A stretch of DNA of 33,325 bases from the NCBI GenBank assembly GCA_947627475.1, contig CANQWE010000017.1, positions 1-33,325 of the forward strand, read 5' to 3'. Made by a program: the position numbers and the translations under genes. Position 1 is the stretch's first letter. Each line of letters begins with the position of its first letter. This document shows, piece after piece, positions 7,272 to 32,330 of the stretch. This DNA is from an uncultured Clostridia bacterium. Lineage in GTDB: Bacteria; Bacillota; Clostridia; Oscillospirales; CAG-272. The notes below the pieces were generated by a model. That model saw nothing but the letters and a program-made list of their open reading frames with translations, made no database searches and was not told the origin of the DNA.

Positions 7272-7272
7272 G

Positions 7273-8549: not shown

Positions 8550-8567
8550 TGAAAGGAGGCGACAGGT

Positions 8568-8927: not shown

Positions 8928-8958
8928 TTCATCCCCAGCCAACATCCGGTTTGTACAC

Positions 8959-8979
8959 TGTTTAATGAACCATTAAACA
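8959..8979. repeat. Perfect 9-bp AT-rich hairpin in the rplR-rpsE spacer
   Basis: TGTTTAATG-AAC-CATTAAACA. Confidence 0.6.
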
Positions 8980-8997
8980 AATTCAAGGAGAAAAGAC

Positions 8998-9504: not shown

Positions 9505-9518
9505 GGGAGGGTGACGAT

Positions 9519-9692: not shown

Positions 9693-9764
9693 ACCACTCC
9701 AGACAGAAACATGTGCCCCCAAAGGTACAAAAAAAGAATGATTTCAACGTAAGGAGGAAAAACC

Positions 9765-10211: not shown

Positions 10212-10212
10212 G

Positions 10213-11514: not shown

Positions 11515-11532
11515 AAGGAACGAGGGAAACCT

Positions 11533-12186
11533 ATGAAAACCATTAAGCTGATCCTTCTGGGAGCGCCGGGGGCCGGCAAAGGAACCCAGGCAAGTGTCCT
11601 TTCAGAAAAGTACAACATTCCCACCATATCCACCGGCGCGCTGATCCGGGAGGCGATTGCGAAAGAGACCCCTCTGGGGAAAAGCGCCAAAACGTATACG
11701 GACGCCGGCGCGCTGGTGCCGGACGAAGTAGTCATCGGTATGATCCGGGAGCGGCTCAGCCAGCCGGACTGCGCGGGCGGCTTCATTCTGGACGGATTCC
11801 CCCGTACAGTGCCCCAGGCGCAGGCACTGGAGGACATGGGAGTGGACGTCACAGATGTGATCAGCATAGAAGTACCTGACGATCAGATCCAAAAACGAAT
11901 GGGAGGCCGGCGTGTCTGCAAGACCTGCGGCGCCACCTTCCATGTGGAGTATAATCCTTCTCCGGCAGGGGAAAAGTGTCCCTGCGGAGGCACGCTTACC
12001 GTCCGCAGCGATGATAGGCCGGAGGTAGTAGCAAGCCGGCTGGCCACTTACCACAGCATGACCGAACCGCTGAAGGCGTATTACGCCGAAAAGGGGCTGC
12101 TAAAAATCGTACAGGGACAGGAGCAAATCGCCGACACCACGGCCCTTACCTTGGCAGCATTGTCCAATGGGGGGAATAGAGGTTAA
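11533..12186 (+). CDS. adk: Adenylate kinase with Zn-type lid
   Basis: LILLGAPGAGKGTQA; FILDGFPRTVPQAQAL; lid CKTC...CPCGG. Confidence 0.96.
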   Translation: MKTIKLILLGAPGAGKGTQASVLSEKYNIPTISTGALIREAIAKETPLGKSAKTYTDAGALVPDEVVIGMIRERLSQPDCAGGFILDGFPRTVPQAQALEDMGVDVTDVISIEVPDDQIQKRMGGRRVCKTCGATFHVEYNPSPAGEKCPCGGTLTVRSDDRPEVVASRLATYHSMTEPLKAYYAEKGLLKIVQGQEQIADTTALTLAALSNGGNRG

Positions 12187-12198
12187 GAAGGAACTATC

Positions 12199-12954
12199 AT
12201 GATTTTTATTAAAAATCCTGAACAAATCAAAAAGATGCAGCAGGCAGGCCGGATCACCGGCGAAGCCTTGGCTCTCGCCGGGGAAGCCGTCCGGGAAGGA
12301 ATAACCACCGCCGCGCTGGATAAGATGATCCGATCTCATATTGAAAAGTGCGGCGCAAAGCCCTCCTTTCTGGGATACGGCGGATTTCCCGGCAGCGCCT
12401 GCATCAGCATCAATGAAGAAGTGATCCACGGCATTCCGTCGGCAGAGCGGTATCTGCAGGAGGGGGACATTGTAAAAATCGATGTGGGCGCCTACATCGA
12501 CGGCTTCCACGGAGACAGCGCAAATACCTTTCCTGTGGGGAAAATCAGTGTCGAGGCCCAGCGTCTGATCGATGCCACAAGAGAATCCTTTTACGAGGGT
12601 GTGCAGGCCGCGCAGCGGGACGGCGCCCGGATCGGTGACATCGGTGCCGCTGTGGACGGATACGTGTCCCAGCGAGGATATTCTGTGGTGCGTAAGTATG
12701 TTGGTCACGGCGTGGGAAAGGATCTCCATGAGGACCCCAGCGTTCCCAACTACGGCACGCCGGGACACGGTCCCCGGATCAGCCGGGGCATGGTGATCGC
12801 CATTGAACCCATGATCAACGCCGGAACAGGCCGTGTGATCGACCAGCCGGATGGCTGGACGGTGATCACGGCAGATGGACAGCTGTCTGCCCACTATGAA
12901 CACACAGTGGCTATCACCGACGAGGGGCCTCTGCTCCTGACAAAGGTAGACTGA
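12199..12954 (+). CDS. map: Methionine aminopeptidase type I
   Basis: GYGGFPGSACISINEEVIHGIPS; GDIVKIDVGAYIDGFHGDSANTF; YVGHGVGKDLHEDPSVPNYG. Confidence 0.95.
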   Translation: MIFIKNPEQIKKMQQAGRITGEALALAGEAVREGITTAALDKMIRSHIEKCGAKPSFLGYGGFPGSACISINEEVIHGIPSAERYLQEGDIVKIDVGAYIDGFHGDSANTFPVGKISVEAQRLIDATRESFYEGVQAAQRDGARIGDIGAAVDGYVSQRGYSVVRKYVGHGVGKDLHEDPSVPNYGTPGHGPRISRGMVIAIEPMINAGTGRVIDQPDGWTVITADGQLSAHYEHTVAITDEGPLLLTKVD

Positions 12955-12956
12955 CC

Positions 12957-13196
12957 ATGTGGGTCGGGGCGGTGGTCCAAAGCAAAGCGGGCCGGGACAG
13001 ATACAGGCTGTATATCATCATCGGAGAAACCCAGGACGGTCGGGCCCTTATCGCAAACGGCAGACTCCATACCCTGGAAAGGCCAAAGAAGAAAAATCTT
13101 CGGCATTTGACGGTACTTTCCGGGGGCGCAGAGAAGGTCCCGGACACGGACGATGCAGTATACGCCTATCTGCAGGATTTTGAAAATCGCGCATAA
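12957..13196 (+). CDS. KOW-domain RNA-binding protein (L14e-like)
   Basis: 79 aa MWVGAVVQSKAGRDRYRLYIIIGETQDGRALIANGRLHTLERPKKKNLRHL; map-infA location. Confidence 0.75.
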   Translation: MWVGAVVQSKAGRDRYRLYIIIGETQDGRALIANGRLHTLERPKKKNLRHLTVLSGGAEKVPDTDDAVYAYLQDFENRA

Positions 13197-13305
13197 AAAT
13201 CATGAAGAGACTGGCAGAGTCGTCAGGAAAAGAAAAATGGGAATCAAAACGATTTCGCACAGCGAAAACCGGCAAAAAGCCTGAGAAAGGTATGGACTTT
13301 TATTT

Positions 13306-13524
13306 ATGCCAAAAGATGATGTAATCGAATTTGAAGGCGTGGTGGTTGAGGCGCTGCCCAACGCAACCTTCAAGGTAAAGCTGCCCAATGAAATGATCGT
13401 CACCGCACACATTTCCGGGAAGCTGCGCATGAACTATATCAAGATTTTGCCTGGAGACAAGGTAACGGTGGAGGTTTCCATCTACGATCCTACAAAAGGC
13501 AGAATCACATGGCGTACGAAGTAA
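13306..13524 (+). CDS. infA: Translation initiation factor IF-1
   Basis: [54 protein letters not shown]. Confidence 0.96.
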
Positions 13525-13579
13525 TACAGCAAGGCTGTAGGAACGCAAAACGGCAAATCAAAGAAAGGCGGTTGTTACT

Positions 13580-13693
13580 GTGAAAGTAAAACCTTCTGTA
13601 AAAAAGATCTGCGAAAAGTGCAAAATTATAAAAAGACATGGCCGGGTAATGGTCATTTGCGAAAACCCCAAGCACAAGCAGAGACAGGGCTGA
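13580..13693 (+). CDS. rpmJ: 50S ribosomal protein L36
   Basis: 37 aa [40 protein letters not shown] start; below the ORF-track size cutoff. Confidence 0.95.
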
Positions 13694-13760
13694 TCGCCCA
13701 AGCAAGAGCGCGCCCAGAGGGCGCCCAACCAATCAAACCCGAAAGAGGTGAAAAAAAGCT

Positions 13761-14129
13761 ATGGCTCGTATATCAGGTGTTGATATTCCCAACCAGAAGC
13801 GTGTTGAGATTGCATTGACGTATATCTATGGAATCGGATTGAAGAGCTCCAAGGATATCCTTGCAAAAACCGGCATCAACCCCGACACACGCGCAAAGGA
13901 CCTGACTGAGGAAGAAATTGCAAAGCTGCGTGATGAAATTGAAAACAACTACACAGTAGAAGGTGAGCTTCGCCGTGAGGTTGCTATGAACATCAAGCGA
14001 CTGGTAGAGATCAACTGCTACCGTGGCATCCGGCACAGAAAAGGCCTGCCGGTACGCGGACAGCGGACCAAAACCAATGCAAGAACCAGAAAGGGTCCGG
14101 CAAAGACCATCGCCAATAAGAAGAAGTAA
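13761..14129 (+). CDS. rpsM: 30S ribosomal protein S13
   Basis: [26 protein letters not shown]...[26 protein letters not shown]. Confidence 0.97.
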
Positions 14130-14146
14130 AGGAGTGAGCTGATTTC

Positions 14147-14539
14147 ATGGCAAATGTAAAGAAAACGATCAAGAAGCGCCGCGACCGTAAAAATATTGAA
14201 AGCGGGGCCGCACATATCCGCTCCAGCTTCAACAATACGATCATTACCATCACCGACCTGCACGGAAACGCAGTTTCCTGGGCGTCAGCAGGAGAAATGG
14301 GCTTTAAGGGTTCCAGAAAGTCCACCCCGTATGCGGCGCAGACAGCGGCAGAAACCGCAGCAAAGCTTGCGATGGAGCATGGAATGAAAACGGTAGAGGT
14401 ATACGTAAAGGGTCCCGGAAGCGGACGGGAGGCAGCCATCCGTGCGCTGCAGACTACCGGTCTGAACATTACCCTGATCAAAGACGTAACCCCGATTCCC
14501 CATAACGGCTGCCGCCCTCCGAAGCGCCGCCGTGTATAA
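14147..14539 (+). CDS. rpsK: 30S ribosomal protein S11
   Basis: [28 protein letters not shown]...[18 protein letters not shown]. Confidence 0.97.
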
Positions 14540-14560
14540 TCTATAAGGAGGAAGAATCTA

Positions 14561-15187
14561 ATGGCAAGATATACAGGACCTTCCTGCAAGCTGTGCCGCA
14601 GAGAAGGAAAGAAGCTGTTCCTGAAGGGAGACCGTTGTCTCTCCGACAAATGCGCAGTATCCAGACGTGCGACGGTTCCCGGTCAGCATGGGGCAGGCCG
14701 TAAAACCGTAAAGGAATACGGAATGCAGCTGCGGGAAAAGCAGACTGCCCGCCGGTACTATGGCGTACAGGAGAAGCAGTTTAAAAAGTACTATGTAAAG
14801 GCGGACAAAAAGAGCGGTATCGCTGGTGAAAACCTGCTGTCCATTCTGGAAAGCCGCTACGACAACGCGGTATACAGAATGGGTCTGGCCTCCAGCCGTA
14901 AGGAAGCAAGACAGCTGGTTCGTCACGGACACTTTACCCTGAACGGGAAAAAGGCGGATATTCCGTCCATTATCCTGAAGGTGGGAGATGTGATTGAACT
15001 GCGTGAAAAAAGCCGTTCCAGCGAGAAATTCAAAGCGTTGATAGAGGATATGGCAAACGTGACCGCACCCAAGTGGCTGGATCTGAACAAAGATGCAGTC
15101 AGCGCGAAGGTTGTGGCAATGCCGGCCCGTGACGACGTAGACTTTGACTTCAACGAACAGCTGATTATCGAGCTTTATTCTAAGTAA
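14561..15187 (+). CDS. rpsD: 30S ribosomal protein S4
   Basis: MARYTGPSCKLCRREGKKLFLKG...SRKEARQLVRHGHFTLNGKKADIPS. Confidence 0.96.
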   Translation: MARYTGPSCKLCRREGKKLFLKGDRCLSDKCAVSRRATVPGQHGAGRKTVKEYGMQLREKQTARRYYGVQEKQFKKYYVKADKKSGIAGENLLSILESRYDNAVYRMGLASSRKEARQLVRHGHFTLNGKKADIPSIILKVGDVIELREKSRSSEKFKALIEDMANVTAPKWLDLNKDAVSAKVVAMPARDDVDFDFNEQLIIELYSK

Positions 15188-15332
15188 TAACCTGCCATGC
15201 TGCAGCCGGGCGGCAGTTGGTGAAGGACCGGATGCGTGGCAGCTCCGGCAGCCGTGCGCGGGCATGCAGCAAGTTCCTGCTCCTTTGAGGGAGCGTCTAA
15301 AGGATCAATGAATGAAATTACAGGAGGTTGTT

Positions 15333-16304
15333 ATGATCGAAATAGAAAAGCCGAACATCATGACGCTGAATATGAGCGAGACAGGGGAATCGGGCACATT
15401 TGTAGTCGAGCCGCTGGAAAGAGGCTATGGGATTACCCTGGGTAACTCCCTGCGCCGCGTATTGCTCAGCTCCCTCCCCGGCGTCGCTGTTACAAGTATC
15501 AAAATCGATGGCGTACTTCACGAAATCTCCACCATTGACGGTGTCAAGGAAGATGTAACGGAAATCGTCCTGAATGTAAAAGGAATTACGGCGAGACTGC
15601 ACTCTGTGACAACCAAGACGGTAATGCTGGATATGACCGGACCCTGCGACGTGACGGCAGGGGATATCAAGCAGGATGCAGATATTGAAATTCTCAACCC
15701 GGATCACCATATTGCAACCCTTGGAGACAATGTGCGGCTGCACATGGAGCTCAGCTTTGCCAGGGGAAGAGGGTATGTTTCCCAGCAGAGAAATAAACAG
15801 TATTATCTGGATGAAAACCAGGGCGTCAGCGCCCCGGTGGGAACGATCTTCACAGATTCCATCTTTACACCGGTCTACAATGTAAACTACAATGTGGAAA
15901 ACACCCGTGTGGGAAATATCACAGACTTTGATAAGCTGACAATCGAGATTTTGACCAATGGTACAATCTCGGCCAAAGAAGCGGTTTCATTGGGCGCCAA
16001 GATACTCAACGAACATCTCAACTTGTTCGTGGATCTTTCGGACGAGGCGAAAAACGCTGAAATTATGGTGGAAAGCGTAGCAACAGTCAAAGAAAAAGTA
16101 CTTGAGATGACCATTGAGGAGCTTGACATGTCCGTGCGCAGCTTCAACTGCCTGAAGCGTGCGGGCATCGATACGGTGGAAGACCTGATCAATCGGACAG
16201 AGGACGAAATGATCCGGGTGAGAAACCTTGGAAAGAAATCGCTGGAGGAAGTCATCGCGAAACTGAATTCTCTCGGCCTGGAGCTGAAGAAGGACGACGA
16301 ATGA
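15333..16304 (+). CDS. rpoA: DNA-directed RNA polymerase subunit alpha
   Basis: MIEIEKPNI...; [20 protein letters not shown]; alpha-[25 protein letters not shown] at 15333 after GGAGG. Confidence 0.96.
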
Positions 16305-16345
16305 GGCTTTCCCAAAAATAGTATTGCGAAAAGGAGGACATGAAC

Positions 16346-16702
16346 ATGCCCGGAACAAGAAAGCTTGGCAGGCCGACGGCCCATAGAAACGCCATGCTCC
16401 GTGGAATGGTAACCTACCTGCTGGAGAACGGTACAATTGAAACGACATTGACCCGTGCGAAGGAAGTCCGTTCCATGGCAGAGAAAATGATAACCCTTGG
16501 CAAGAAAAATACCCTTGCCTCCCGCCGTGCGGCACTTGCATATATCACAAAGGAAGACGTGGTGAAGAAGCTGTTTGATCAGATCGCACCGAAATACGCT
16601 TCCAGAAACGGCGGATACACACAGATTTACAAGCTTGGCCCCCGTCGCGGAGACGCCGCGGAGATGGCAATGATCAAATTGATCGACGAAGCTGCAGAGT
16701 AA
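16346..16702 (+). CDS. rplQ: 50S ribosomal protein L17
   Basis: [29 protein letters not shown]; start 16346 has better SD spacing than 16340. Confidence 0.95.
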
Positions 16703-16715
16703 GAGAAAAGCAATA

Positions 16716-16752
16716 TGGGAGGACAGAGCATTGGGCTGTCCTCCCATACTTT
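16716..16752 (+). terminator. Intrinsic terminator of the ribosomal super-operon
   Basis: TGGGAGGACAG (16716-16726) / CTGTCCTCCCA (16736-16746), then TACTTT. Confidence 0.85.
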
Positions 16753-16954
16753 GTATTTTAGGGACTATATGCAAAGTATATAGAGCGTGCAGGCTGTATG
16801 AAACAAGCCTTTTCGTACAGTTGTTTTACACCCCAATACGTCTTAAATCGGAAAACGCCTTTATAACTTCACCTGAAAAACAGCCGTTTTTATTAAGGAT
16901 TATTTCGGATATGGTCATCGGAGATGAGAGTAGGATAGTTTTTTCTTTCCCACA

Positions 16955-17011
16955 TCAGCTTCGCTGACACCCTCCCTCTGTGGCTTTTCACGAGTGAAGC
17001 CACAGAGGGAG
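16955..17011. repeat. Composite palindromic element A (two hairpins)
   Basis: TCAGC-TTC-GCTGA (16955-16967) and 15-bp CTCCCTCTGTGGCTT/AAGCCACAGAGGGAG (16972-17011). Confidence 0.75.
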
Positions 17012-17050
17012 CTTAGAGTAGAACAGGTCAGTTTTGTTGACATCATCCTG

Positions 17051-17070
17051 GTGTTTCGCCCGCGAAACAC
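17051..17070. repeat. Perfect 9-bp palindrome GTGTTTCGC-CC-GCGAAACAC
   Basis: Direct reading. Confidence 0.75.
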
Positions 17071-17232
17071 TGCAGAGAGGCAAGGGTCCTCATGTAAGTG
17101 GCACGCAGGGCGACTCCTCTATCGTCTCAGCAAGACTGGGATGATGGTTTTGTCGTTGAAAGGGTCGTCTACAAATTTTTCCCTCCGCAACAACGATACT
17201 GTACCATATTATTGCTGCCACGGAGCGGCGGA

Positions 17233-17652
17233 ATGGAGTTTTATATGAACAACACAACGATTCAGTTTCAATCGTCTGTTCCATATTCAATGGAAGGGAT
17301 TATTGATGGAGAAAAATCTGTGAAAGTCGCCACCGGTTCATTTGTCACCTTAGACCTTGTACCGGGTGTACACACCTTACGTGTGGCTGTTCCTTATCAG
17401 GGAAATGAGATAGGCGTTGTAGAAGTGGACTTTGAAGTTAAACCAGAGGGACAATATACGATTATTTATAAATTTACGGCTATGCAAATGCGGGGGTCCC
17501 TTACTGTAAAAGAGCGACTTGGAAGAGACCAGGAAACTGAAGTAGCAAAAACTTCTGGCGCCATCACCAGGCAAGGAATTGGTATACAAATTATCTGGTT
17601 TACGGCATTGATCTTGGTGGTTATTGCTATACTTTTAATTTTTTTCTTCTAA
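17233..17652 (+). CDS. Small membrane-anchored protein with N-terminal beta-rich domain and one C-terminal TM helix
   Basis: MEFYMNNTTIQFQSSVPYSMEGIIDGEKSVKVATGSFVTLDLVPGVHTLRVAVPYQGNEIGVVEVDFEVKPEGQYTIIYKF...IIWFTALILVVIAILLIFFF. Confidence 0.65.
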   Translation: MEFYMNNTTIQFQSSVPYSMEGIIDGEKSVKVATGSFVTLDLVPGVHTLRVAVPYQGNEIGVVEVDFEVKPEGQYTIIYKFTAMQMRGSLTVKERLGRDQETEVAKTSGAITRQGIGIQIIWFTALILVVIAILLIFFF

Positions 17653-17679
17653 AAGCCATCTAAAAGAAGGGAGTGCTTT

Positions 17680-18095
17680 ATGAACGACAATATTACGGTT
17701 TAACATCGAGAACCGGTGTATAGATGTGTCCATCGACCAGGGACCTCCAGCGCACATTGCCCCCGGGATGGCCGTGACTACACAGCTGCAGCCAGGGTCT
17801 CACGTGATCCGTGCCTCGATCTCCTATCAGGGTAACGAGGTAGGTGTTGCAATTGCAGCGTTCACTGTAGAGCCGGGATGCCGGTATGAAATTCAGTACG
17901 AGGGGGGCCGGCCTGTATAGAAACAGCAGGAATACAATTTTAAAGTACTATGGATCGGGGAAGAGCGGCACCGTATTATATACAACTCCAAGACGCCTCC
18001 GTCTATTTAAAGTATTTGGGATAGCGTACATAGGCTTGACTATTTGTGTGTTTGCAGGTGCGGTTTTGTATTTAATTTTTGGAATTTTCCTTTAA
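17680..18095 (+). pseudogene. Frameshifted tandem paralogue of the 17233-17652 protein
   Basis: Frame pieces MNDNITV / FNIENRCIDVSIDQGPPAHIAPGMAVTTQLQPGSHVIRASISYQGNEVGVAIAAFTVEPGCRYEIQYEGG / ...RLRLFKVFGIAYIGLTICVFAGAVLYLIFGIFL; two +1 shifts, one at a G6 tract. Confidence 0.65.
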
Positions 18096-18211
18096 TATGG
18101 TATATACCAATGAAACACCCATGCAAAAAATTGTAAGCAAATATAATTTTACAATGTAAGCATATCATGGATTTTTCTGGGGAAACCTACCTTGAAAAGC
18201 AAGGAGGGCCT

Positions 18212-18730
18212 ATGAAAAAATCTGGTATTCTATATGTCTGTGCTGCAGTCATGGTTGTTAGTATCATTTTAACAGGAATTGCATGTGGAGCTGATGTGGC
18301 AGCTATGAACCAGGAAGAGGCAATTGTCTGCCTGGCAGAGGAGACGGAAAATGCAAAAGGGGACATCATACTTACGCAAGCCGAAAAATCCCTGTTGGCA
18401 CAGCTGGTCAGCGCCGAATGTGCGGGAGAGCCATATTTATGTCGGGTGGCGGCAGCGGCGGTGGTACTCAATCGGGTAAAGCATGAGGGATTTCCGGATA
18501 CGGTGGTGAATGTTATCTTTTCTGTAGGAGCATTCCCTAGTGTAGAAGAAGGGCGGATCGGACAAGGGGCTGTATGGCAAGACGTGTCCATTTCCATGCA
18601 AGCAGTCCGGCAGGCAGCAAGCGGGGAAGATCCAACTGGGGGAGCGCTGTACTTTGCCAGGGAAGATGATCCTTTGGCTGCCGGTATCGGCGTGACCTTT
18701 TTCGCTGGGGACATGGTATTTGGAAGATAA
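18212..18730 (+). CDS. Cell wall hydrolase, SleB/Hydrolase_2-like, with N-terminal signal/TM segment
   Basis: EKSLLAQLVSAECAGEPYLCRVAAAAVVLNRVKHEGFPDTVVNVIFSVGAFPSVEEGRIG...DPTGGALYFAR. Confidence 0.8.
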   Translation: MKKSGILYVCAAVMVVSIILTGIACGADVAAMNQEEAIVCLAEETENAKGDIILTQAEKSLLAQLVSAECAGEPYLCRVAAAAVVLNRVKHEGFPDTVVNVIFSVGAFPSVEEGRIGQGAVWQDVSISMQAVRQAASGEDPTGGALYFAREDDPLAAGIGVTFFAGDMVFGR

Positions 18731-18734
18731 AGCG

Positions 18735-18771
18735 GCAAAAAGGGGAGTAGTCTCCTCTTTTTGCTTTTTTT
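18735..18771 (+). terminator. Intrinsic terminator
   Basis: GCAAAAAGGGGAG/CTCCTCTTTTTGC stem (one G-U) followed by T7. Confidence 0.85.
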
Positions 18772-18792
18772 AGCTGCATTCGCTGTAAAAGC

Positions 18793-18844
18793 CCCCTCGT
18801 GTTTCATCCCCGAAACACGAGGGGTGTCAAAACGTAGTTTTGAC
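18793..18844. repeat. Composite palindromic element B (two hairpins)
   Basis: CCCCTCGTGTTTC/GAAACACGAGGGG (18793-18824) and GTCAAAAC-GTA-GTTTTGAC (18826-18844). Confidence 0.75.
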
Positions 18845-18990
18845 GGGGAGATCTGCTTAAAAAGCATGGAATAGAGATCCCCACTCCGCCTTGGTACAAC
18901 CGGGCGTCTTTATATTTATACAAAGCCATACAGGGCTACAGAGTGCCGATTGTGCATATCCACAAATAAAAAGGATTCACAGAAACTACC

Positions 18991-19019
18991 TTGACAACAA
19001 AAGATCGGGGATGTATAAT
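18991..19019 (+). promoter_or_regulatory. Consensus sigma-A promoter of the arg operon
   Basis: TTGACA (18991-18996) - 17 nt - TATAAT (19014-19019). Confidence 0.85.
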
Positions 19020-19087: not shown

Positions 19088-20020
19088 ATGACAAAAGTAT
19101 TTATAGATGGCAAGGAAGGCACAACCGGCCTGCAAATATGGGAGCGGCTGGCAGACAGAGACGACGTGGAGCTGCTGGTCCTGCCGGAGGAGATGCGTAA
19201 AGATCCGGACGCGCGCTGTCAGGCGCTGAACAGCTGTGATATCGCTTTTTTCTGCCTTCCTGACGCGGCGGCCAAGGAAGCAGCCGCGATGATTAAAAAT
19301 CCCGCAGTGCGGGTTATTGACGCCTCCACCGCCCACAGAACGGCGCCGGGATGGATCTACGGATTTCCGGAGCTGTCCAGTGATATTCGCGGATCTGTTG
19401 CACAGGCCCCTCGGGTGGCCAATCCCGGCTGCCATGCCAGTGGATTCATCGCTTTGATTCGCCCCCTAATCGACGCGGGACTTTTAGACAGGGGTGTGGC
19501 CCTTTCCTGTTTTTCCATTACCGGATACAGCGGCGGCGGTAAAAAAATGATTGCCGGATATGAGGACAGCGCCCGTCCCGCCCTTTTGGATGCGCCCCGG
19601 CAGTACGGACTTGCCCAAACCCACAAGCATCTGCCGGAGATGCAGACCCTGTGCGGCCTTGCGACGGCTCCCATCTTTTGCCCCATCGTAGCAGATTATT
19701 ACTGCGGTATGGAGGTTACCGTGCCCCTGCACCGGGGAATGCTCCGGGGCAGTGCAGCGGATGTACAGACCGTGTATCGGGATTTGTACACCGGCCCGGT
19801 GGTTCGATACCAGGAAAAGGCAGAGGAAGAAGGGTTTTTCTCAGCCGGTAAATATGCGAATTGGGACGGAATGGAAATCTCAGTCCATGGCAATGCCGAC
19901 CGGATCCTGCTGTGCGCCCGGTACGACAACTTAGGCAAAGGTGCCTCCGGCGCTGCAGTACAGAGCTTCAATATTATGACCGGACAGTCGGAGACAAAAG
20001 GGCTTCGCCTGGGGCAGTGA
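19088..20020 (+). CDS. argC: N-acetyl-gamma-glutamyl-phosphate reductase (short, ~310 aa form)
   Basis: DGKEGTTGLQIWERL; VANPGCHASGF (catalytic Cys kept); ITGYSGGGKKMI; THKHLPEM. Confidence 0.94.
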   Translation: MTKVFIDGKEGTTGLQIWERLADRDDVELLVLPEEMRKDPDARCQALNSCDIAFFCLPDAAAKEAAAMIKNPAVRVIDASTAHRTAPGWIYGFPELSSDIRGSVAQAPRVANPGCHASGFIALIRPLIDAGLLDRGVALSCFSITGYSGGGKKMIAGYEDSARPALLDAPRQYGLAQTHKHLPEMQTLCGLATAPIFCPIVADYYCGMEVTVPLHRGMLRGSAADVQTVYRDLYTGPVVRYQEKAEEEGFFSAGKYANWDGMEISVHGNADRILLCARYDNLGKGASGAAVQSFNIMTGQSETKGLRLGQ

Positions 20021-20065: not shown

Positions 20066-20098
20066 ATAAGGAAAGAATTGAGAGAATTGGTGACCGAT

Positions 20099-21319
20099 AT
20101 GGAGTTTATAAAAGGCGGCGTCTGTGCGGCGGCAGGATTTCGGGCCGGCGGCGTGCACTGCGGCATTCGGAAGAACAAGACAAAAAAAGACTTGGCGCTG
20201 ATTTTTAGTGAAAAAAAAGCGGCGGCAGCCTGCGTATATACCAGAAACCTGGTGAAGAGCGCGCCCATTGCAGTGACGCAGGAGCACGTGAAGAGCGGGT
20301 ATGCCCAGGCGATTATCTGCAACAGCGGCATCGCCAATACCTGCGCCAGCGACGGCGTGGAAAAAGCAGTAGGAATGTGCGCGCTTGCAGCAGACGCGCT
20401 GGGTATTTCCGAAGAGGATATCGTAGTGGCGTCTACCGGTGTGATCGGACCGTCCCTATCCCTGGATCCGATTCGCGCGCATATTGGAGAGCTTGCGGCC
20501 GGCCTTTCGGCGGACGAGAGCGGCAGCGCAGATGCGGCTACCGCCATTATGACCACAGATACAGTGAAAAAAGAGGTGGCAGTCCGTTTCCAAATCGATG
20601 GAGTGGAGTGCAGACTGGGCGGGATCGCTAAGGGAAGCGGTATGATTCATCCCAACATGGCCACCATGCTGGTGTTTGTCACTACCGACTGCGCGATTTC
20701 CCCGGAGCTGCTGCAAAAAGCCCTGTCTGACGATGTACCGGACTCCTTCAACATGCTCAGCATTGACGGAGACACCTCCACCAACGATATGGTGACGGTG
20801 CTTGCCAACGGCATGGCACAAAACCCACAGATTACAAAAGAGGGTCCTGGATACACCGCCTTTTGTCAGGCGCTGGCTGCAGTGACCCGATCCCTGTGCC
20901 GTATGCTTGCGGCAGATGGAGAGGGAGCGACTAAGCTGCTGGACTGCACCGTCTTTGGCGCACCAGACGAGGCCACGGCAAAAACAGCGGCCAAAAGCGT
21001 CATCTGCTCTTCCCTGGTGAAAAGCGCTATGTTCGGCGCGGACGCAAACTGGGGCAGAGTCCTGTGCGCCTTGGGTTACAGTGGGGTGGCGTTGGATCCT
21101 GGTAAAATTGATGTGTCCTTTAAAAGCGAAGCGGGAGAGGTCGCCGTGTGCAAAAACGGGGCCGGCATTCCCTTTGACGAAGAGCGGGCAAAGGAAATCC
21201 TTTCCCGAGATGATATACAGATTCTCGTAGATTTGCAGAGCGGGAACGCCAGCGCCCAGGCCTGGGGGTGCGATTTGACCTATGATTATGTAAAAATAAA
21301 CGGAGATTACCGGACATGA
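20099..21319 (+). CDS. argJ: Bifunctional ornithine acetyltransferase/N-acetylglutamate synthase
   Basis: GGVCAAAGFRAGGVHCGIR; cleavage motif MIHPNMATMLVF; start uncertain (20078 TTG or 20099 ATG). Confidence 0.94.
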   Translation: MEFIKGGVCAAAGFRAGGVHCGIRKNKTKKDLALIFSEKKAAAACVYTRNLVKSAPIAVTQEHVKSGYAQAIICNSGIANTCASDGVEKAVGMCALAADALGISEEDIVVASTGVIGPSLSLDPIRAHIGELAAGLSADESGSADAATAIMTTDTVKKEVAVRFQIDGVECRLGGIAKGSGMIHPNMATMLVFVTTDCAISPELLQKALSDDVPDSFNMLSIDGDTSTNDMVTVLANGMAQNPQITKEGPGYTAFCQALAAVTRSLCRMLAADGEGATKLLDCTVFGAPDEATAKTAAKSVICSSLVKSAMFGADANWGRVLCALGYSGVALDPGKIDVSFKSEAGEVAVCKNGAGIPFDEERAKEILSRDDIQILVDLQSGNASAQAWGCDLTYDYVKINGDYRT

Positions 21320-22182
21320 GTGAAGGAAAGCCCAGTGCAGAGCTCACCTCCCAGGTGTTGATTCAGGCGCTGCCCTATATCCAGAAATATAAGGACAAAA
21401 CCATCGTGATCAAGTACGGCGGCAACGCTATGATCAACGAGGAATTAAAAGACGCGGTCATGGGGGATATCGTGCTCCTCAGCGCCATCGGCATCAAGGT
21501 GGTGCTGGTCCACGGCGGCGGCCCCGAGATCACCGACATGCTCCGCCGGGTGGGCAAGAAAAGCGAATTTGTAGACGGCCTGCGGGTCACAGACCGGGAA
21601 ACAGTGGATATCGTACAAATGGTGCTGGCGGGAAAGGTGAACAAAGGCCTGGTGGATCTGGTTACACGCAAGGGAGGCAGGGCGATCGGCCTGTGCGGGA
21701 TCGACGCAGGAATGCTTCAGGCCAGAGCGGCGGACAGCCGCCTGGGCTTTGTGGGGGAGATCACCCACGTGGATACCCGTCCCATCGCAGACGTGCTGGA
21801 GCAGGGGTATATTCCCATCATTTCCACCGTAGGCAGCGACGGTGCAGGAAACGTGTATAATATTAACGCCGATACGGCGGCCTCCCGGATTGCGGGGGCG
21901 CTGCGGGCAGAATCCCTGATTATCATGACAGACGCCCCCGGTGTGCTCCGGGAAAAAACAGACCCGGATACGCTGATTTCAAAAATATTCGTATCCGACA
22001 CCCTGCGTCTGGCAAAAGAAGGGGTGCTGGACGGAGGAATGATCCCCAAGGTAGATTGCTGTAAGGACGCCATCCGCCGCGGCGTAAACCGGGTTTTCAT
22101 TATTGACGGCAGGGTACCCCATTCGATTTTGATTGAGATATTTACCGACGCAGGACTTGGCACCATGTTTGTGGGCGGCTGA
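21316..22182 (+). CDS. argB: Acetylglutamate kinase
   Basis: IVIKYGGNAM; VLVHGGGPEITDML; ATGA overlap with argJ. Confidence 0.96.
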   Translation: MSEGKPSAELTSQVLIQALPYIQKYKDKTIVIKYGGNAMINEELKDAVMGDIVLLSAIGIKVVLVHGGGPEITDMLRRVGKKSEFVDGLRVTDRETVDIVQMVLAGKVNKGLVDLVTRKGGRAIGLCGIDAGMLQARAADSRLGFVGEITHVDTRPIADVLEQGYIPIISTVGSDGAGNVYNINADTAASRIAGALRAESLIIMTDAPGVLREKTDPDTLISKIFVSDTLRLAKEGVLDGGMIPKVDCCKDAIRRGVNRVFIIDGRVPHSILIEIFTDAGLGTMFVGG

Positions 22183-22199: not shown

Positions 22200-23369
22200 A
22201 TGGAAAACATACAAAATTTGACCGATAAATATATTGCAAAAACCTATAACCGTTCCCCTGTACAGTTGATCCGGGGGGCGGGCTCTCTGGCGTATGATAC
22301 AGAGGGAAAGCGGTATATTGATCTTGGCTCCGGCATCGCGGTCAATCAGTTTGGCATTGCAGATCCGGACTGGATCCAGGCAGTGACCGTGCAGCTGTCC
22401 TGCCTGCAGCACACATCCAACCTGTATTACAGCGAACCAGCTGCCCGCCTTGCCAAAATTCTGTGTCAGCGGACGGGAATGGAGCGGGTGTTCTTCTCCA
22501 ACTCCGGCGCCGAGGCCAACGAGTGTGCCATCAAAACAGCCCGCAGACGGGCATTCCTTACCTATGGAGACGAGTCCCACAGTACCATCATCACCCTGCG
22601 TGACTCCTTTCACGGCCGAACCGTCACCACCCTGTCCGCTACCGGGCAGGACAGCTTCCATACGGAGTTTGGTCCCTTTACGCCGGGCTTTGTCTATGCC
22701 CAGCCGGGGGACGTGGCGGATCTGCACCGGCTGGCAGACAGTACGGACTGCTGCGCCGTCATGCTGGAGACCATCCAGGGAGAGGGCGGCGTCAATGTGC
22801 TGGACGAGGCATATGTGCAGGCGGCATGGGAACTGTGCCGTCAGCGGGATATGCTGCTGATTGTGGACGAGGTGCAAACCGGAAACGGCCGCACCGGCAG
22901 CCTGTATTCTTATACACATTATGGAATAACACCAGACATAGTCACCACAGCCAAGGGGCTTGCCGGGGGACTGCCCATGGGGGCGACCCTGCTGGGCAGC
23001 CGGTGTGCCGACGTGCTCACCCCCGGATCCCACGGATCCACCTTTGGAGGCAATCCAGTGGCAGCGGCAGGGGCTGTAAATATTATAAACAGAATCGATG
23101 AAGGGCTTCTTGCCGGCGTGCTGCAAAGGGAAACGCTGATCCGTGATCTCCTTGCAGGCGCGAAGGGCGTGATTGATGTGACAGGCCGGGGCCTCATGCT
23201 GGGAATCCGGTGTGAAAAGCCCGCCGGAGAGATTGTAGCCCAGGCGGCCCGTGCAGGGGTTTTGGTACTTACGGCCAAAGATAAAGTTCGTCTTCTGCCT
23301 GCGCTGAATATTCCGGAGCATCTGCTCCAGGAAGCCATCGAAATTTTGAAACGGGTAATTGCAGAATGA
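22200..23369 (+). CDS. argD: Acetylornithine aminotransferase
   Basis: FFSNSGAEANECAIKTAR; IVDEVQTGNGRTGSLY; PLP lysine TTAKGLAGGLPMGA. Confidence 0.95.
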   Translation: MENIQNLTDKYIAKTYNRSPVQLIRGAGSLAYDTEGKRYIDLGSGIAVNQFGIADPDWIQAVTVQLSCLQHTSNLYYSEPAARLAKILCQRTGMERVFFSNSGAEANECAIKTARRRAFLTYGDESHSTIITLRDSFHGRTVTTLSATGQDSFHTEFGPFTPGFVYAQPGDVADLHRLADSTDCCAVMLETIQGEGGVNVLDEAYVQAAWELCRQRDMLLIVDEVQTGNGRTGSLYSYTHYGITPDIVTTAKGLAGGLPMGATLLGSRCADVLTPGSHGSTFGGNPVAAAGAVNIINRIDEGLLAGVLQRETLIRDLLAGAKGVIDVTGRGLMLGIRCEKPAGEIVAQAARAGVLVLTAKDKVRLLPALNIPEHLLQEAIEILKRVIAE

Positions 23370-24214
23370 AGCATTTTCTGACCATATCGGATCTGCACGC
23401 AAAGCAGATCCACGAAATACTGAACCTGGCGGATCAGCTGAAATACGAAAAGCAGCACCGCACGCCCCATTTGCTGCTCCAGGGAAAAACCCTTGGAATC
23501 GTGCCGGGAAGCTCCTCTTCCCGCACGCGCATCTGCCTGGAGGTTGGGATGTATGATCTGGGGGGCCAGGCCGTGTCCCTGCCGGCGGACACCCTGCGGG
23601 AACAGGATGGATCCCGGATCCGGGAAAGCGCGCAGTGTTATTCCCGCTTTGTAGATGTGATCGCCCTGCGTGCGCTGCCCCATACGGTGCTGGGTGCCTT
23701 TGCGGCAGAGAGCACCGTACCGGTGCTCAATGGAGCATCGGATCTGGCGGACCCCTGCAGCACCCTTGCAGATCTGATGACGATCCGGGAGCGGTGCGGC
23801 ACCTTTGCGGGGCTTCGACTTTGTTATGCCGGCCCTGCCGGAGCCGCTGCGAACAGTCTGATCGCCGGCGCACTGACCATGGGGATGGAAGTGGCTACGC
23901 TCACGGCCCCCTGCAGGGAAACAGACGGAAGTCCGTTGCTTTTAAAGGGCTGGACCCTGTTTGAAAATCTTGCCGACGCCGCGGCAGGCGCCGATATTAT
24001 CTATACAGGTCCCGGAGCGGCCTTTGGGGGGATTGACAGCGCCATTGCCGCCTCCGGCGCCCAGGAGCTGCTTGTCCTCCATAAGCAGCCCGCCAACAGA
24101 GGCGGGGAGCTGTCGGAGCAGGTTTTTGCGGAGCACGCCCAGGAAATCTACGATCAGGCGGAAAATAAGCTCCATGTGATCAAGGCGCTCCTTGTAAAGC
24201 TGCTTCGTCAGTGA
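23366..24214 (+). CDS. argF: Ornithine carbamoyltransferase-like protein, divergent active site (282 aa)
   Basis: GSSSSRTRICLEVGMYDLGG, VLNGASDLADPCSTLADLMTI, LHKQPANRGGELSEQVF, QAENKLHVIKALL; operon position. Confidence 0.8.
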   Translation: MKHFLTISDLHAKQIHEILNLADQLKYEKQHRTPHLLLQGKTLGIVPGSSSSRTRICLEVGMYDLGGQAVSLPADTLREQDGSRIRESAQCYSRFVDVIALRALPHTVLGAFAAESTVPVLNGASDLADPCSTLADLMTIRERCGTFAGLRLCYAGPAGAAANSLIAGALTMGMEVATLTAPCRETDGSPLLLKGWTLFENLADAAAGADIIYTGPGAAFGGIDSAIAASGAQELLVLHKQPANRGGELSEQVFAEHAQEIYDQAENKLHVIKALLVKLLRQ

Positions 24215-24261: not shown

Positions 24262-25338
24262 ATGAAGAAAGCATATTTGATATTGGACGGCGGACAGGTG
24301 TTTGAGGGGTACCGTTTCGGCGCCGAGGGAGACGCCGTAGGGGAGCTGGTATTCAACACCGGTATGGTGGGGTATATCGAAACCCTCACGGATCCCAGCT
24401 ACTGCGGGCAAATTGTGCTGCAAACTTTCCCGCTGATCGGGAACTACGGTATGAATGAAGAGGACTGGGAAGGAAAGCCTGCCCCCAGCGGATATGTAGT
24501 GCGGGAATGGTGCGACACACCGTCCAACTTCCGCAGTACAGGCACCGTAGATGCGTTTTTGAAAAAAGCGGGAATTCCCGGCATCTTTGGGGTGGATACC
24601 CGCCAGATCACCCGGATCATCCGGGAGCGGGGCGTGATGAACGCCGTCATTGCAGACAGCGTGCCTGCAGATTTGTCCGCGTTACATACCTATACCATTG
24701 CCGACGCAGTGCGGCAGGTGTCCTGCCAGGCGCCTGCTGTATATCCGGCCCAGGGTGAGGAAAAACACAAAATTACCCTGATCGATTACGGCTGCAAGAA
24801 AAGCACCATTCAGTGGCTGACCCAGCGGGGCTGCACTGTTACCGCAGTGCCTTATGATACCTGCGCGAAAGATATTCTCGCCGCCGCCCCCGATGGTGTC
24901 GTCCTGTCCGGCGGCCCTGGAGACCCGGCGGAAAATACCGGCTGCATTGCAGTGCTCCGGGATCTTCTCGGGAAAGTCCCCCTGTTTGGCGTGGGGCTGG
25001 GCCATCAGATGCTGGCCCTGGCAGCCGGCGGAAAAACCTGCAAGCTGAAATACGGCCATAGAGGCGCCAACCAGCCGGCCAAAGAGCTTTTGGGACATCG
25101 GACCTATATCACTGGTCAAAACCACGGCTTTGCAGTGGATATGGACAGCATACCGGAGGGCGGCCGTGTGACCTTGGTCAACGCCAACGACGGCACCTGC
25201 GAGGGAATCGAATATCCGGCCCTGCGTGCCTTCTCTGTACAGTTTGACCCCCAGACGTGCACCGGCCCTCTGGGAAAGAGTCCTTTGCTGGATCAGTTTA
25301 TCAATTGGATGGGAGGAGCAGACAATGCCGCTGAATAA
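24262..25338 (+). CDS. carA: Carbamoyl-phosphate synthase small subunit lacking canonical glutaminase triad
   Basis: GELVFNTGMVGYIETLTDPSYCGQIVLQTFPLIGNYG; FGVGLGHQMLALAAGGKTCKLKYGHRGANQP; QFDPQTCTGP. Confidence 0.92.
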   Translation: MKKAYLILDGGQVFEGYRFGAEGDAVGELVFNTGMVGYIETLTDPSYCGQIVLQTFPLIGNYGMNEEDWEGKPAPSGYVVREWCDTPSNFRSTGTVDAFLKKAGIPGIFGVDTRQITRIIRERGVMNAVIADSVPADLSALHTYTIADAVRQVSCQAPAVYPAQGEEKHKITLIDYGCKKSTIQWLTQRGCTVTAVPYDTCAKDILAAAPDGVVLSGGPGDPAENTGCIAVLRDLLGKVPLFGVGLGHQMLALAAGGKTCKLKYGHRGANQPAKELLGHRTYITGQNHGFAVDMDSIPEGGRVTLVNANDGTCEGIEYPALRAFSVQFDPQTCTGPLGKSPLLDQFINWMGGADNAAE

Positions 25339-28300
25339 AAGTATCAAAAAGGTCCTGATGATTGGAAGCGGACCCATCGTAATCGGGCAGGCAGCAGAAT
25401 TCGACTATGCGGGGGCGCAGGCGTGCCGTGTGCTGAAAAAGGCTGGGGTCAATGTGGTGCTGGTTAATTCCAACCCGGCTACTATTATGACAGATAACGC
25501 CCTTGCGGATGAAATTTATTTGGAACCGCTGACGGTGGAAACCGTCAAGCGGATTATAGAAAAAGAACGGCCTGACAGCCTTTTGGCAGGACTTGGAGGT
25601 CAGACTGGACTTACGCTGGCGATGCAGCTTTCCAAGGACGGATACTTGGAGGAGCAGGGCGTGCGCCTGCTGGGTACAGACGCCCATGCCATTGACCGTG
25701 CGGAAGACCGGCAGATGTTCAAGGATACTATGGCAAAGATTGGCCAGCCCGTAGTACCTTCCGATATTGCGAATACCGTAGACGGCTGTGTGGAAGTGGC
25801 AGAGCGGATTGGCGGATATCCTGTGATCGTGCGTCCTGCCTTCACCCTTGGAGGCGGCGGCGGTGGCGTGGCATATTCCGAGGAGGAGCTGCGTGTCATC
25901 GCCCGTACCGGACTGGATGTGTCCCCTATCACCCAAGTGCTGATCGAGCGGTATATCGCCGGCTGGAAGGAAATCGAGTTTGAAGTCATGCGGGATGCTG
26001 CGGACAACGCCATCGCCATCTGCTCCATGGAAAACTTTGACCCTGTGGGCGTACATACCGGCGACTCTATCGTGGTGGCCCCTGCGCTTTCCCTGTCCAC
26101 CAGGGAATACGCAATGCTGCGGTCCGCTTCTCTGGATATCGTATCCGAGCTTGGCATCGTGGGGGGCTGTAACTGCCAGTTCGCCCTGAATCCGGACTCC
26201 TTTGAGTATGCAGTCATCGAGGTAAACCCCCGGGTTTCCCGTTCCTCTGCATTGGCATCTAAGGCTACCGGATATCCTATCGCAAAGGTGACTACCCAGC
26301 TGGCTCTGGGCTATACCCTGGATGAGATTCAAAATGAGATCACCGGAGGGACCTGCGCCTGCTTTGAGCCTACCGTTGACTATGTGGTGCTGAAATTCCC
26401 CAAATGGCCCTTTGATAAATTTGTCAATTCCAGCCGGAAACTAGGTACACAGATGAAGGCTACTGGAGAGGTCATGTCCATCGCGCCCTCCTTTGAAATG
26501 GCAGTGATGAAGGCAGTCCGGGGGGCGGAGATCTCACTGGACACCCTGAATATGCAGCCAAAAACGGCGCAGCCTCTTACCGAGCGGCTGGCCGCCCAGG
26601 ACGATGTGCGGATCTTCACCGTTTTTGAGGCACTGAAGAGTGGTATGGACATAGAGGAAGTCTATAAAATTACAAAAATCGACCGCTGGTTCCTCCATAA
26701 GCTCCAGGGTCTTGCGGAATTTGAAAAGAAAATTGCCGGGGGACTTTCCGATGAGGACTACTACGCGGCAAAGAAACTGGGCTATACAGATGCGGCCCTC
26801 ACTGCTCTGAGCGGCAGAAGGGAGCTGCCGGAGAGCACCGCGGTGTACAAAATGGTGGACACCTGCGGCGCGGAATTTGCAGCCCAAACCCCGTATTTCT
26901 ATTCCACCTACGATACAGAATGTGAATCCCGCACCTTTAGAAGAAGCGGCAAGCCGGTGATCATGGTGCTGGGCAGCGGCCCCATCCGGATTGGCCAGGG
27001 CATCGAGTTTGACTACTCCTCTGTCCACTGTGTATGGACTCTCAAGGAGCTGGGCTACGACGTGGTGATCGTCAACAACAACCCGGAAACCGTTTCTACC
27101 GACTACGATACCGCAGACCGGCTGTATTTCGAGCCCCTCTGTCAGGAAGATGTGATGAACATCATCAAGGCGGAGCATCCTGTAGGAGTCGTTGTAGCCT
27201 TCGGCGGCCAGACGGCGATCAAGCTCACGAAATTTTTAGATCAAAACGGAATCAAAATCCTGGGCACCTCTGCAGACGGCATCGATATCGCCGAGGACAG
27301 AGAGCGGTTTGACGCGCTGCTGGAGGAATTCTCCATCCGCCGTCCCAAGGGACATGGGGTTATGACCTGTGAAGAGGCGCTGGCTGCAGCCAACGAGCTT
27401 GGGTATCCTGTTCTGCTGCGCCCCTCTTATGTAATCGGCGGCCAGAACATGACCATCGCCTATGACGACGCAAGCGTGCGCCGATATATGGATATCATCC
27501 TCTCCGGAGAGATCGAAAATCCAGTGCTCGTAGACAAATATATGATGGGCACAGAGCTGGAGGTAGACGTCATCTCCGACGGACGGGACGTGCTGATCCC
27601 CGGTATTATGGAGCACATCGAGCGGGCAGGGGTTCACTCCGGCGACTCCATCGCTGTGTATCCCCCCTATAATCTGAACGATCTTATGCTGGAAAAGGTG
27701 ATCGACTGCTCCACAAAGCTGGCCCTTTCTCTGGGCACCAAGGGGCTTGTGAATATCCAGTATCTCATTTATCACGGAGAACTGTATGTGATTGAGGTAA
27801 ATCCCCGGGCATCCCGTACCGTTCCCTATATCAGTAAGGTGACCGGCGTGCCCCTGGTGGACATCGCTAGCCGGGTGATGACCGGCGCGGCCCTGGCAGA
27901 TTTGGGCTATGGCACAGGTCTGTACAAGACGCCGCCTTACTTTGCGGTAAAGGTGCCGGTGTTTTCCTTTGAAAAGCTGTCCGACGTAAACTCTATCCTG
28001 GGACCGGAAATGAAATCCACCGGCGAGGTGCTGGGGATCGGACGGACCATGGCGGAGGCCCTGTTCAAGGGACTTACCTCCGCGGGCTTTGATTTAAAAC
28101 TTCCAAGCCGGGGCAAAATCGGCGCGCTGATCAGCGTGTGCGAGCACGACAATTTTGAAGTGGTGACCCTGGCGAAGAAGTTCCACGATTTGGGTATTGA
28201 AATTTACGCTACCCCGGATACGGCCAACGCCATCGGCCAGCTGGGCATTGAAGTGAACACCGTGCGCAGCATGGACCAAGGGGACGATATGATGCAGCTG

Positions 28301-29356
28301 CTGGAATCCGGTAAGATCAGCTATGTGATCTACACCGGCGCGGTGCACGACGATACGGTAGGGGATTATATCACCCTCCATCGCCGGGCTATCCAGCTTT
28401 CCATCGCATGCCTCACCTCCCTGGATACAGCCAACGCCCTGGCGGATATCTTTGCGTCCCGCTACAACCAGCAGAATACGGAAAATGTAGACATCAATAA
28501 CATGCGGACCATGCGGCAGAAGGTACCCTTCTCCAAAATGGAGGGCAGCGGCAACGACTACATCTTCATCGACAACTTTGACGGTAAGATTACCTGCCCC
28601 GAATCCCTCTGCGTGTCTTTGTGCGACCGAAACTGCGGGATCGGCGGCACCGGCATTGTGCTGATAGAAAAATCCCACAGGGCAGACGCCAAAATGCGCA
28701 TCTTCAACCAGGATGGCAGCGAGGGCTTGATGGCGGGCAACAGCATCCGCTGCGTGGCAAAATATCTGTACGACAAGGGCATTACCGTAAAAAAGGTGCT
28801 GCAGATTGAGACGGCCAGCGGAATCCGTACCCTGCGTCTGTATACGATGAACGGGAAGGTTTCCTCCGTTTCGGTAGATATGGGACGGGCAAGCCTGTCT
28901 CCGGCTGATATCGGTACCACCCTTATGGGGGACGAGATCGTAGACCGGACCGTGCAGATCGGTGGGGACGCGTACAACATTACCTGCGTTTCTGTGGGAA
29001 ATCCCCATTGCGTGGTGTTCTGCAGCCGGGTAGACGATGTGGATATCGAAAAGGTAGGCCCTGCCTTTGAAAACGCGGAGATTTTCCCCGGTCGGATCAA
29101 TACGGAGTTTGTCCGTGTGGTCAACGAAGCAACGCTGAAAATGCGGGTATGGGAGCGGGGCAACGGGGAAACCCTTGCCTGCGGCACCGGCGCCTGTGCG
29201 GCGGTGGTGGCTGCCACCCGTCTTGGCTACCTGAAGAAAGGTACCGACGTGACAGTGAAGCTGCCCGGCGGAGACCTGATCGTGCGGTATACCGACGAGG
29301 GCGTTACCCTTACCGGCGAGGCAAAGCTGGTGTATGAAGGGGAAGTGGAGCTGTAG
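25325..29356 (+). CDS. carB: Carbamoyl-phosphate synthase large subunit fused in frame to a diaminopimelate epimerase domain
   Basis: CarB ~25325-28501: [56 protein letters not shown]. DapF ~28502-29356: [47 protein letters not shown]. No stop between. Confidence 0.93.
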   Translation: [1343 protein letters not shown]

Positions 29357-30385: not shown

Positions 30386-31576
30386 TTATCCAGTGATTTT
30401 TTGTATATATTGCTCCATTCTGTCAGCGCTGTCTTTTTTCATCTGCTCTGTTACATGCCCGTATACGTCCAGCGTAAAAGCTGCCGTGTGGTTCCCCATG
30501 TTTTCCTGTACAGTTTTTATATCGTCTCCGGCCCGAATAGACATGACTGCGAAGGTATGCCGCAAATCGTGAAACCGCATGTCCGGCAGTCCCATTTCGG
30601 TTACAATTGCTTTAAAGTTTTTATATACCGTACCTGCAACCAAGTGCTTTCCAAATTCATTTGTAAATACAAGGTTTTCAAAATCTCCTTCGCTCCATAG
30701 ATTTCCGGCGACTCTTCGCGCTTCCAACTGCCATGTAAATTGCGAGCGTAAAGCCTCTATTACAGGCTTCGATACTGTTATGCTCCGGCCTTTATCATTT
30801 TTCAGCGATGTAAAAGCGTATGGATCGCCTTTATTTTTGCCTTTTTGCAGTTGGCGGCAAACAGTGATGCTTTGTTTTATAATATCGACACAATCCCATG
30901 TAAGTCCCAGAAGCTCCCCCTCTCTCATACCCGTAAATAACGCAAGAATATACAGGTTTTCAAACTTATGCCCTTTTATCGCTGTAAGAAACTGTGGAAT
31001 TTGCAAATCGTCAAACGGTTTGATCTCACTCCGTACAATTCGAGGCAAAGCACAATTGTCTGCGGGATTATATCTTAAATACCCAACTGTTGTTGCTTGT
31101 TTCAGTACCTTATGCAATACACCGTGAATATCTTTAACAGACTTTGGAGAGAGGGCTTTGTGGCCGTCTATCCCTTTGGAAAGCCCATTGTATAGCCGTT
31201 GTACCTGGGGCACGGTAAGTGCAGCCAGCTTTACGGCCCCTATATATGGCTTTATATGAATCCGGATATTCTTTTCATAGGCATTTATTGTAAAGGGCTT
31301 TACATTACCGTTGTACTCTTCCAGCCAGATATCCAGCCATTCTCCCACAGTGATTTTGGACGGATCCTTATAAACACCGTTGTCCATTTCCGTACTGATC
31401 TGGGAAAGCTTTTTTCGCACTTCCGCTTGTGTCTGCCCATAAACGGAACGCTGAATTTGCTTTCCTGTTCCGGGATCTCTGCCGACAGTATAGCGGGCTT
31501 CCCACCTTCCATCTGGACGCTGGCGGATCGTGCCTCCGCCTTTAGCATTTTTGCTGTTTGGTTTGGATATTTTCAT
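30386..31576 (-). CDS. int: Site-specific tyrosine recombinase/integrase
   Basis: ALFTGMREGELLGLTWDCVD; LPDMRFHDLRHTFAVMSI; ENMGNHTAAFTLDVYGHV; 396 aa next to tRNA-Ser. Confidence 0.95.
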   Translation of the reverse strand: MKISKPNSKNAKGGGTIRQRPDGRWEARYTVGRDPGTGKQIQRSVYGQTQAEVRKKLSQISTEMDNGVYKDPSKITVGEWLDIWLEEYNGNVKPFTINAYEKNIRIHIKPYIGAVKLAALTVPQVQRLYNGLSKGIDGHKALSPKSVKDIHGVLHKVLKQATTVGYLRYNPADNCALPRIVRSEIKPFDDLQIPQFLTAIKGHKFENLYILALFTGMREGELLGLTWDCVDIIKQSITVCRQLQKGKNKGDPYAFTSLKNDKGRSITVSKPVIEALRSQFTWQLEARRVAGNLWSEGDFENLVFTNEFGKHLVAGTVYKNFKAIVTEMGLPDMRFHDLRHTFAVMSIRAGDDIKTVQENMGNHTAAFTLDVYGHVTEQMKKDSADRMEQYIQKITG

Positions 31577-32330
31577 GTGTTACCTTTCTTACTTTTATCC
31601 CCGTTGCCAAAGACTCAATAAATTTCCAAAATTCATGTTGCGAGCGCCATAATATAGCATCAGATTTTTCACGGGCAGAATTAGCATTTGAAATCAATTT
31701 ACTTGTTTCACCAAACATTTTAGAATATGTTATATCCATCCTGCAACGCTGTTCCAATATGTATATAGCTTCATCAGGATCAATATTACCCGTTTCTACC
31801 TCTGCATCCACTTCTTGTGCCAAGCGCAGTTCTATATCGTCTAACTCTTTATTACAAGTATATGCTTGTTCATATAAAATTACAGCCTCGTTTTTTGCAT
31901 ATACAGTGCTTTTTAATGTGAGTAAAAAGTGTTCCAATTCTCGGGAAGAAAAAAAATGATCAAGGAAATCAGTTGACACTCGTTTTTGCTTGTGTTTTTT
32001 AAAAATGGTTCCACCAATATTTTTTTCCCCGCTATATAAAGACGTTAGATTTTCGACAACTTCTTCCGAACATCCAATTTTTTTGCATATGGCTTGTGTA
32101 TCAATATCGGTTGACTGTATGTCTGACAAGCCCAAAAGATAATCTGCTGATACATTCAGAAACTCTGCTATTTTTATAATCTGTTCCGTATTCGGCGTTC
32201 TTTTTCCGCTTACAAAATACGAAATTGTATTATCTGTAACGCCGAGTGCCGCTGCTAATTCCTTTTGTTTTATGTTTGCGGCAGCCAGAGCGCTATTTAT
32301 TCGTTGTCCGATAACCTTTCTGTTATCCAT
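31542..32330 (-). CDS. XRE-family HTH transcriptional regulator (CI-like repressor)
   Basis: IGQRINSALAAANIKQKELAAALGVTDNTISYFVSGKRTPNTEQIIKIAEFLNVSADYLLG. Confidence 0.88.
   Translation of the reverse strand: MDNRKVIGQRINSALAAANIKQKELAAALGVTDNTISYFVSGKRTPNTEQIIKIAEFLNVSADYLLGLSDIQSTDIDTQAICKKIGCSEEVVENLTSLYSGEKNIGGTIFKKHKQKRVSTDFLDHFFSSRELEHFLLTLKSTVYAKNEAVILYEQAYTCNKELDDIELRLAQEVDAEVETGNIDPDEAIYILEQRCRMDITYSKMFGETSKLISNANSAREKSDAILWRSQHEFWKFIESLATGIKVRKVTHENIQTKQQKC

Follow-up and report, generated by a model that had tools for sequence, protein, structure and literature searches.

An arginine operon in an uncultured gut Clostridia bacterium encodes, between argD and carA, a short protein of the ornithine transcarbamylase (OTC) family that, judging from the residues it has lost, is very probably dead as a transcarbamylase. 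We lean towards the view that this OTC-like protein is a conserved pseudo-transcarbamylase that acts as a non-catalytic trimer subunit or as a sensor of carbamoyl phosphate or another anion. We are far less sure of this specific role as partner or sensor than of the catalytic death. The gene lies in a stretch of 33,325 nucleotides, the whole of which is referred to here as the window.

The gene order in the window is argC-argJ-argB-argD-(OTC-like)-carA-carB/dapF (Table 1). The 4 bp overlap between the argD stop and the start of the OTC-like gene occurs in all seven genomes that carry this short form of the protein. A consensus (12/12) sigma-70-like promoter at 18991-19019, 5' of argC, is suggestive only; promoter-like sites as a class are not commoner in the sequence than in shuffles of it. 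Our scan found no terminator-like sites on the + strand in the argD-carA interval. Further downstream in the window, on the - strand, are ORFs resembling a site-specific integrase (30386-31576) and a helix-turn-helix regulator (31542-32330), both judged by eye from their translations. Together they resemble the border of an integrated element.

Table 1. Features of the arginine operon and motifs of the OTC-like protein, in window coordinates.
Feature	Position	Strand	Remarks
argC	19088..20020	+	
argJ	20078..21319	+	
argB	21316..22182	+	
argD	22200..23369	+	4 bp overlap (ATGA) with the OTC-like gene
OTC-like protein (putative pseudo-transcarbamylase), 282 aa	23366..24214	+	ATG start
GSSSSRTRI phosphate-binding region (canonical QKSSTRTRV)	23507..23533	+	SxRT kept, ornithine-contacting Lys lost (PMC4581275)
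DPCS replacing HPCQ	23750..23761 (residues 129-132)	+	carbamoyl-binding His and Gln lost
IIYTGPGAAFGG replacing the DVWxSMG loop	23996..24031 (residues 211-222)	+	loop helix deleted
HKQP replacing HCLP	24080..24091 (residues 239-242)	+	
carA	24262..25338	+	glutaminase Cys and His lost (GVGLGHQ; FDPQT)
carB fused to a DapF domain	25325..29356; DapF ~28530-29353	+	first presumed catalytic Cys of DapF is Ala (MAGNSIRC)

The original prediction described this ORF as a short, divergent OTC homologue, and its length and every coordinate named agree exactly with the sequence. The changes of STRTR to SSRTR (residues 51-55), HPCQ to DPCS and HCLP to HKQP are each where they were said to be; DVWxSMG is absent and the Arg of AENRLH is Lys (AENKLH, residues 265-270). 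The OTC scaffold is still recognisable in LGG, NGxxDxxxPC and RGGELSEQVF. The motif changes are not due to chance or assembly error, because they recur in six further genomes of the genus. Across the seven genomes the short form is 282 aa long, and its members are 78-91% identical to the window protein.

Membership of the transcarbamylase family is well supported. Pfam PF02729 and PF00185 both score above cut-off, and an AlphaFold single-chain model built from an alignment of 54 sequences (pLDDT 89.5, pTM 0.90) drops to very low confidence at residues 186-190 and nowhere else. The structure prediction, proposed earlier as a check, yields a predicted OTC fold whose closest PDB structures are OTCs (Foldseek E down to 3e-25), with query-normalised TM-scores of 0.84-0.91 to the transcarbamylases listed. 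The protein is thus predicted, by all three methods, to have the two-domain alpha/beta transcarbamylase fold. Among NCBIfam models OTC ranks first yet remains below threshold (195 vs 280.85 bits for TIGR00658, 202 vs 306 for PRK00779), and the scores fall far below the cut-offs of other classes (PTC 128 vs 500, AOTC 87 vs 288, YgeW 19-21 vs 453-500).

So, is the protein still an enzyme? Shi et al. assign phosphate binding to SxRT, carbamoyl binding to HPxQ and the shaping of the site to the Leu of HxLP, and their review lists for each of the nine characterised transcarbamylase classes the Arg-Thr pair, the beta-4 Arg, and the His, Gln and Leu or an equivalent (PMC4581275). Relative to canonical relatives, the short form carries H129D, Q132 to S/G, C240 to K/R, L241Q, R268K, K49S and D215G. 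It has also lost the Asn pair at 159-160, S219, M220 and the SMG-loop helix, and its 80s loop is changed. HPxQ reads DPC(S/G) and HxLP reads H(K/R)QP in all seven genomes; YTGPxxxFG/WG stands at DxxxSMG, the loop helix is deleted, and GPxGAA occupies the Asn167 region. The claim that both the carbamoyl-phosphate and the ornithine motifs are lacking therefore holds for HPxQ and the ornithine site but not for the phosphate-binding residues: S51, S52, R53 and T54 of SxRT, and R102 of the beta-4 strand, are invariant in the seven genomes. Emphasis had also been placed on the Cys of HCLP, which is indeed gone (K/R), but the residue common to all transcarbamylases is the Leu, which forms a cis peptide to Pro and is here Gln (PMC4581275). 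Of the putative carbamoyl-phosphate site, the phosphate half is kept and the carbamoyl half is gone, as is the ornithine site.

These residues also bear on whether the protein could be an active transcarbamylase with a different amine acceptor and a carbamoyl site rebuilt from D129, K/R240, Q241 and K268. The retained SxRT and beta-4 Arg fit this idea, as do the nearly invariant altered pocket across seven species, the adjacent carbamoyl-phosphate synthase genes and the Lys at the R319 position, which YTCase, DPTCase and DBTCase have as well (PMC4581275). We nevertheless consider it quite improbable. The protein lacks three residues that all nine characterised classes have (PMC4581275), the His and Gln of HPxQ and the Leu of HxLP; its acceptor loop is deleted; and the neighbourhood lacks extra catabolic or biosynthetic genes that would hint at a new substrate.

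The genome search for a canonical argF, also proposed earlier, recovered one. A PF00185 search of the genome found three genes: the OTC-like gene, a 331-aa OTC on contig C28 and PyrB on C57. The C28 OTC has canonical motifs (STRTR, HPTQ, DVWVSMG, HCLP, AENR) and is isolated, flanked by unrelated genes; argG and argH are on C22. Given a canonical OTC, ArgG and ArgH elsewhere, arginine synthesis should not need the OTC-like gene, and the possibility that it encodes the only OTC of the genome is rejected. We also rejected assignment as the catabolic OTC of an arginine deiminase pathway, since no carbamate kinase scored above cut-off and the neighbours are argCJBD and carAB.

A redundant copy may simply be on its way out, and a vestigial argF drifting to loss would be consistent with the canonical OTC elsewhere, with a second lineage that degraded in another way (see below) and with the degraded adjoining CarA. 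The selection data make this highly improbable. Among the seven genomes the short form has pairwise dN/dS values of 0.04-0.16, over dS up to ~1 and above; argD and carA give similar values and carB lower ones. Some pairs have dS >1, a range in which individual values are rough owing to saturation, and closer pairs (dS 0.2-0.6) agree. None of the ten copies of the two forms has a frameshift or stop, and the length of the short form is uniform. A decaying pseudogene is rejected on the same dN/dS values and ten intact copies. In recent short-form pairs the N-terminal domain has a dN/dS of 0.02-0.03, but canonical OTC has the same asymmetry in constraint between its N- and C-terminal domains, so we dropped domain-specific constraint as evidence for a role in trimers. 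Catalytic residues lost under purifying selection, with an active-looking paralogue (the C28 OTC) in the same genome, are the marks of a conserved pseudoenzyme. Of the possibilities originally offered, we prefer that of a pseudoenzyme or regulator in light of the canonical OTC elsewhere, the lost sites and the purifying selection; a transcarbamylase of different specificity is less likely.

The short form is narrowly distributed. No member outside the genus turned up in HMM searches covering 297 genomes from the family and 396 from the order, and a wide distribution is rejected on this basis. A second form, 43-44% identical to the window protein, occupies the same operon slot in three genomes. 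It has ASSTR or ASGTR (with loss of the SxRT Arg), NPCQ or NPCH and no SMG loop, and it keeps HCLP and AENR. Together the two forms occur in 10 of 18 genomes of one genus (Candidatus Avispirillum and kin, including Candidatus Avispirillum faecium); at least five more genomes of this genus have a canonical OTC of the 331-aa type beside argD instead. Among ~140 distinct OTC-like ORFs examined, the active-site set is lost in just these ten, and in three others the only flag was a truncated end or a single substitution. That another lineage holds this slot with a different set of losses suggests that the scaffold was kept rather than catalysis. A second-form protein in a genome of another genus (G311, contig C127, locus L188) is identical to that of G014 (C43, L082); it is probably contamination, one of the two assemblies being contaminated.

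In our tree both forms group with an ArgF type of ~300 aa, away from the 331-aa type, and this ~300-aa type holds the same operon position in related families. The stem of the short form is long (3.47 changes per column, with a conserved crown) and that of the second form shorter (1.0). The two forms are joined with support of 90 in one tree and are unresolved in another, and their branches are long.

The preferred model of a conserved pseudo-transcarbamylase would run as follows. The ornithine site, HPxQ and the HxLP Leu were lost along the long stem branch, and strong purifying selection has acted since. The protein would make no citrulline, would be co-expressed with CarAB, and may form an OTC-type trimer, alone, mixed with canonical ArgF or bound to CarAB. 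The pocket of SxRT and Arg102, with K/R240 and K268, could bind carbamoyl phosphate, phosphate or another small anion, and such binding may tune carbamoyl-phosphate supply or ArgF activity. A phosphate pocket with extra basic residues favours an anionic ligand for the short form. Since the second form lost the SxRT Arg, anion sensing could not be a function common to both if they have a single origin.

The same pocket might serve other ends. H129D, L241Q, R268K, D215G and K49S are fixed in all seven short-form genomes, and the new polar residues D129, Q241 and K268, with K/R at 240, could indicate that the protein acts on a phosphorylated or anionic metabolite by another chemistry (e.g. hydrolysis), or that it is an anion-binding protein unrelated to the control of ArgF or CarAB. 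We regard this as rather unlikely, as both the place in the operon and the 4-bp coupling to argD speak for a function within the arginine pathway.

How does the protein compare with known systems? It shares with ArgF (anabolic OTC; TIGR00658/PRK00779) the fold, two-domain layout, operon position, SxRT and beta-4 Arg, and is ~40-47% identical to ArgF of related organisms, but it has lost the HPxQ His and Gln, the HxLP Leu, the DxxxSMG loop and the equivalents of Asn167 and Lys53. Fold and SxRT are also shared with AOTC, SOTC, YgeW/YTC, PTC, DPTC, DBTC and UGTC, of which YTC, DPTC and DBTC share its Lys at the OTC Arg319 position (PMC4581275), but all of these, unlike it, retain His and Gln in HPxQ and Leu in HxLP. 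Dead homologues retained beside a transcarbamylase have precedents in the inactive dihydroorotase (DHOase) of the dodecameric bacterial ATCase and the pseudo-DHOase of fungal CAD-like proteins, which are holoenzyme parts (PMC4581275). In those systems, too, a dead homologue of a pathway enzyme is kept with a transcarbamylase; however, the dead member there is the DHOase, whereas here the transcarbamylase itself appears dead. A catalytically dead transcarbamylase is not among the classes described in the review (PMC4581275), and our search of the open-access literature found none.

If the assignment is right, the protein would be a natural non-catalytic member of a very well-studied enzyme family, inside an arginine operon, and could lead to carbamoyl-phosphate control of a new kind. 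Automatic annotation would probably label the gene argF, and arginine metabolism could then be mispredicted from the wrong gene.

Two other products of the operon have lost residues as well. The residues missing from the window CarA and from the DapF domain fused to CarB are ones that we take to be catalytic in class-I glutamine amidotransferases and in DapF. The CarA Cys and His are jointly lost in 16 of 57 CarA ORFs at the examined loci, scattered across Clostridia (the window, L016, L022, L027, L028, L073, L078, L080-L082, L119, L128, L152, L156, L165 and L175). On a quick tree this amounts to at least eight state changes; branches with strong support require only two of these. Three genomes that are 95-96% complete (G019, G029 and G051) have only CarA without this Cys and His. 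Animal CPS I carries out ammonia-dependent carbamoyl-phosphate synthesis, and the pattern suggests repeated switches to such a mode. The first DapF Cys (MAGN for MCGN in the window) is missing in 36 of 36 carB-dapF fusions seen, and pseudo-domains may, as these losses suggest, be a wider theme in these operons. The window genome has intact CarA, CarB and DapF on contig C1. It is conceivable, though we think it improbable, that the carbamoyl-phosphate half of the operon forms a regulated assembly of dead enzymes (pseudo-OTC, glutaminase-less CarA and CarB-pseudo-DapF), which would use free ammonia and in which ligand binding by the dead domains would control the synthase, with intact OTC, CarAB and DapF elsewhere doing the ordinary chemistry. 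In another locus (L072; G000:C1:30000-49900), genes named by eye at ~7000-19000 are a glutamine synthetase-like gene, purA, guaA, purF, carA, carB and dapF; the CarA and DapF catalytic motifs are intact there, giving a second carbamoyl-phosphate synthase beside purine and glutamine genes.
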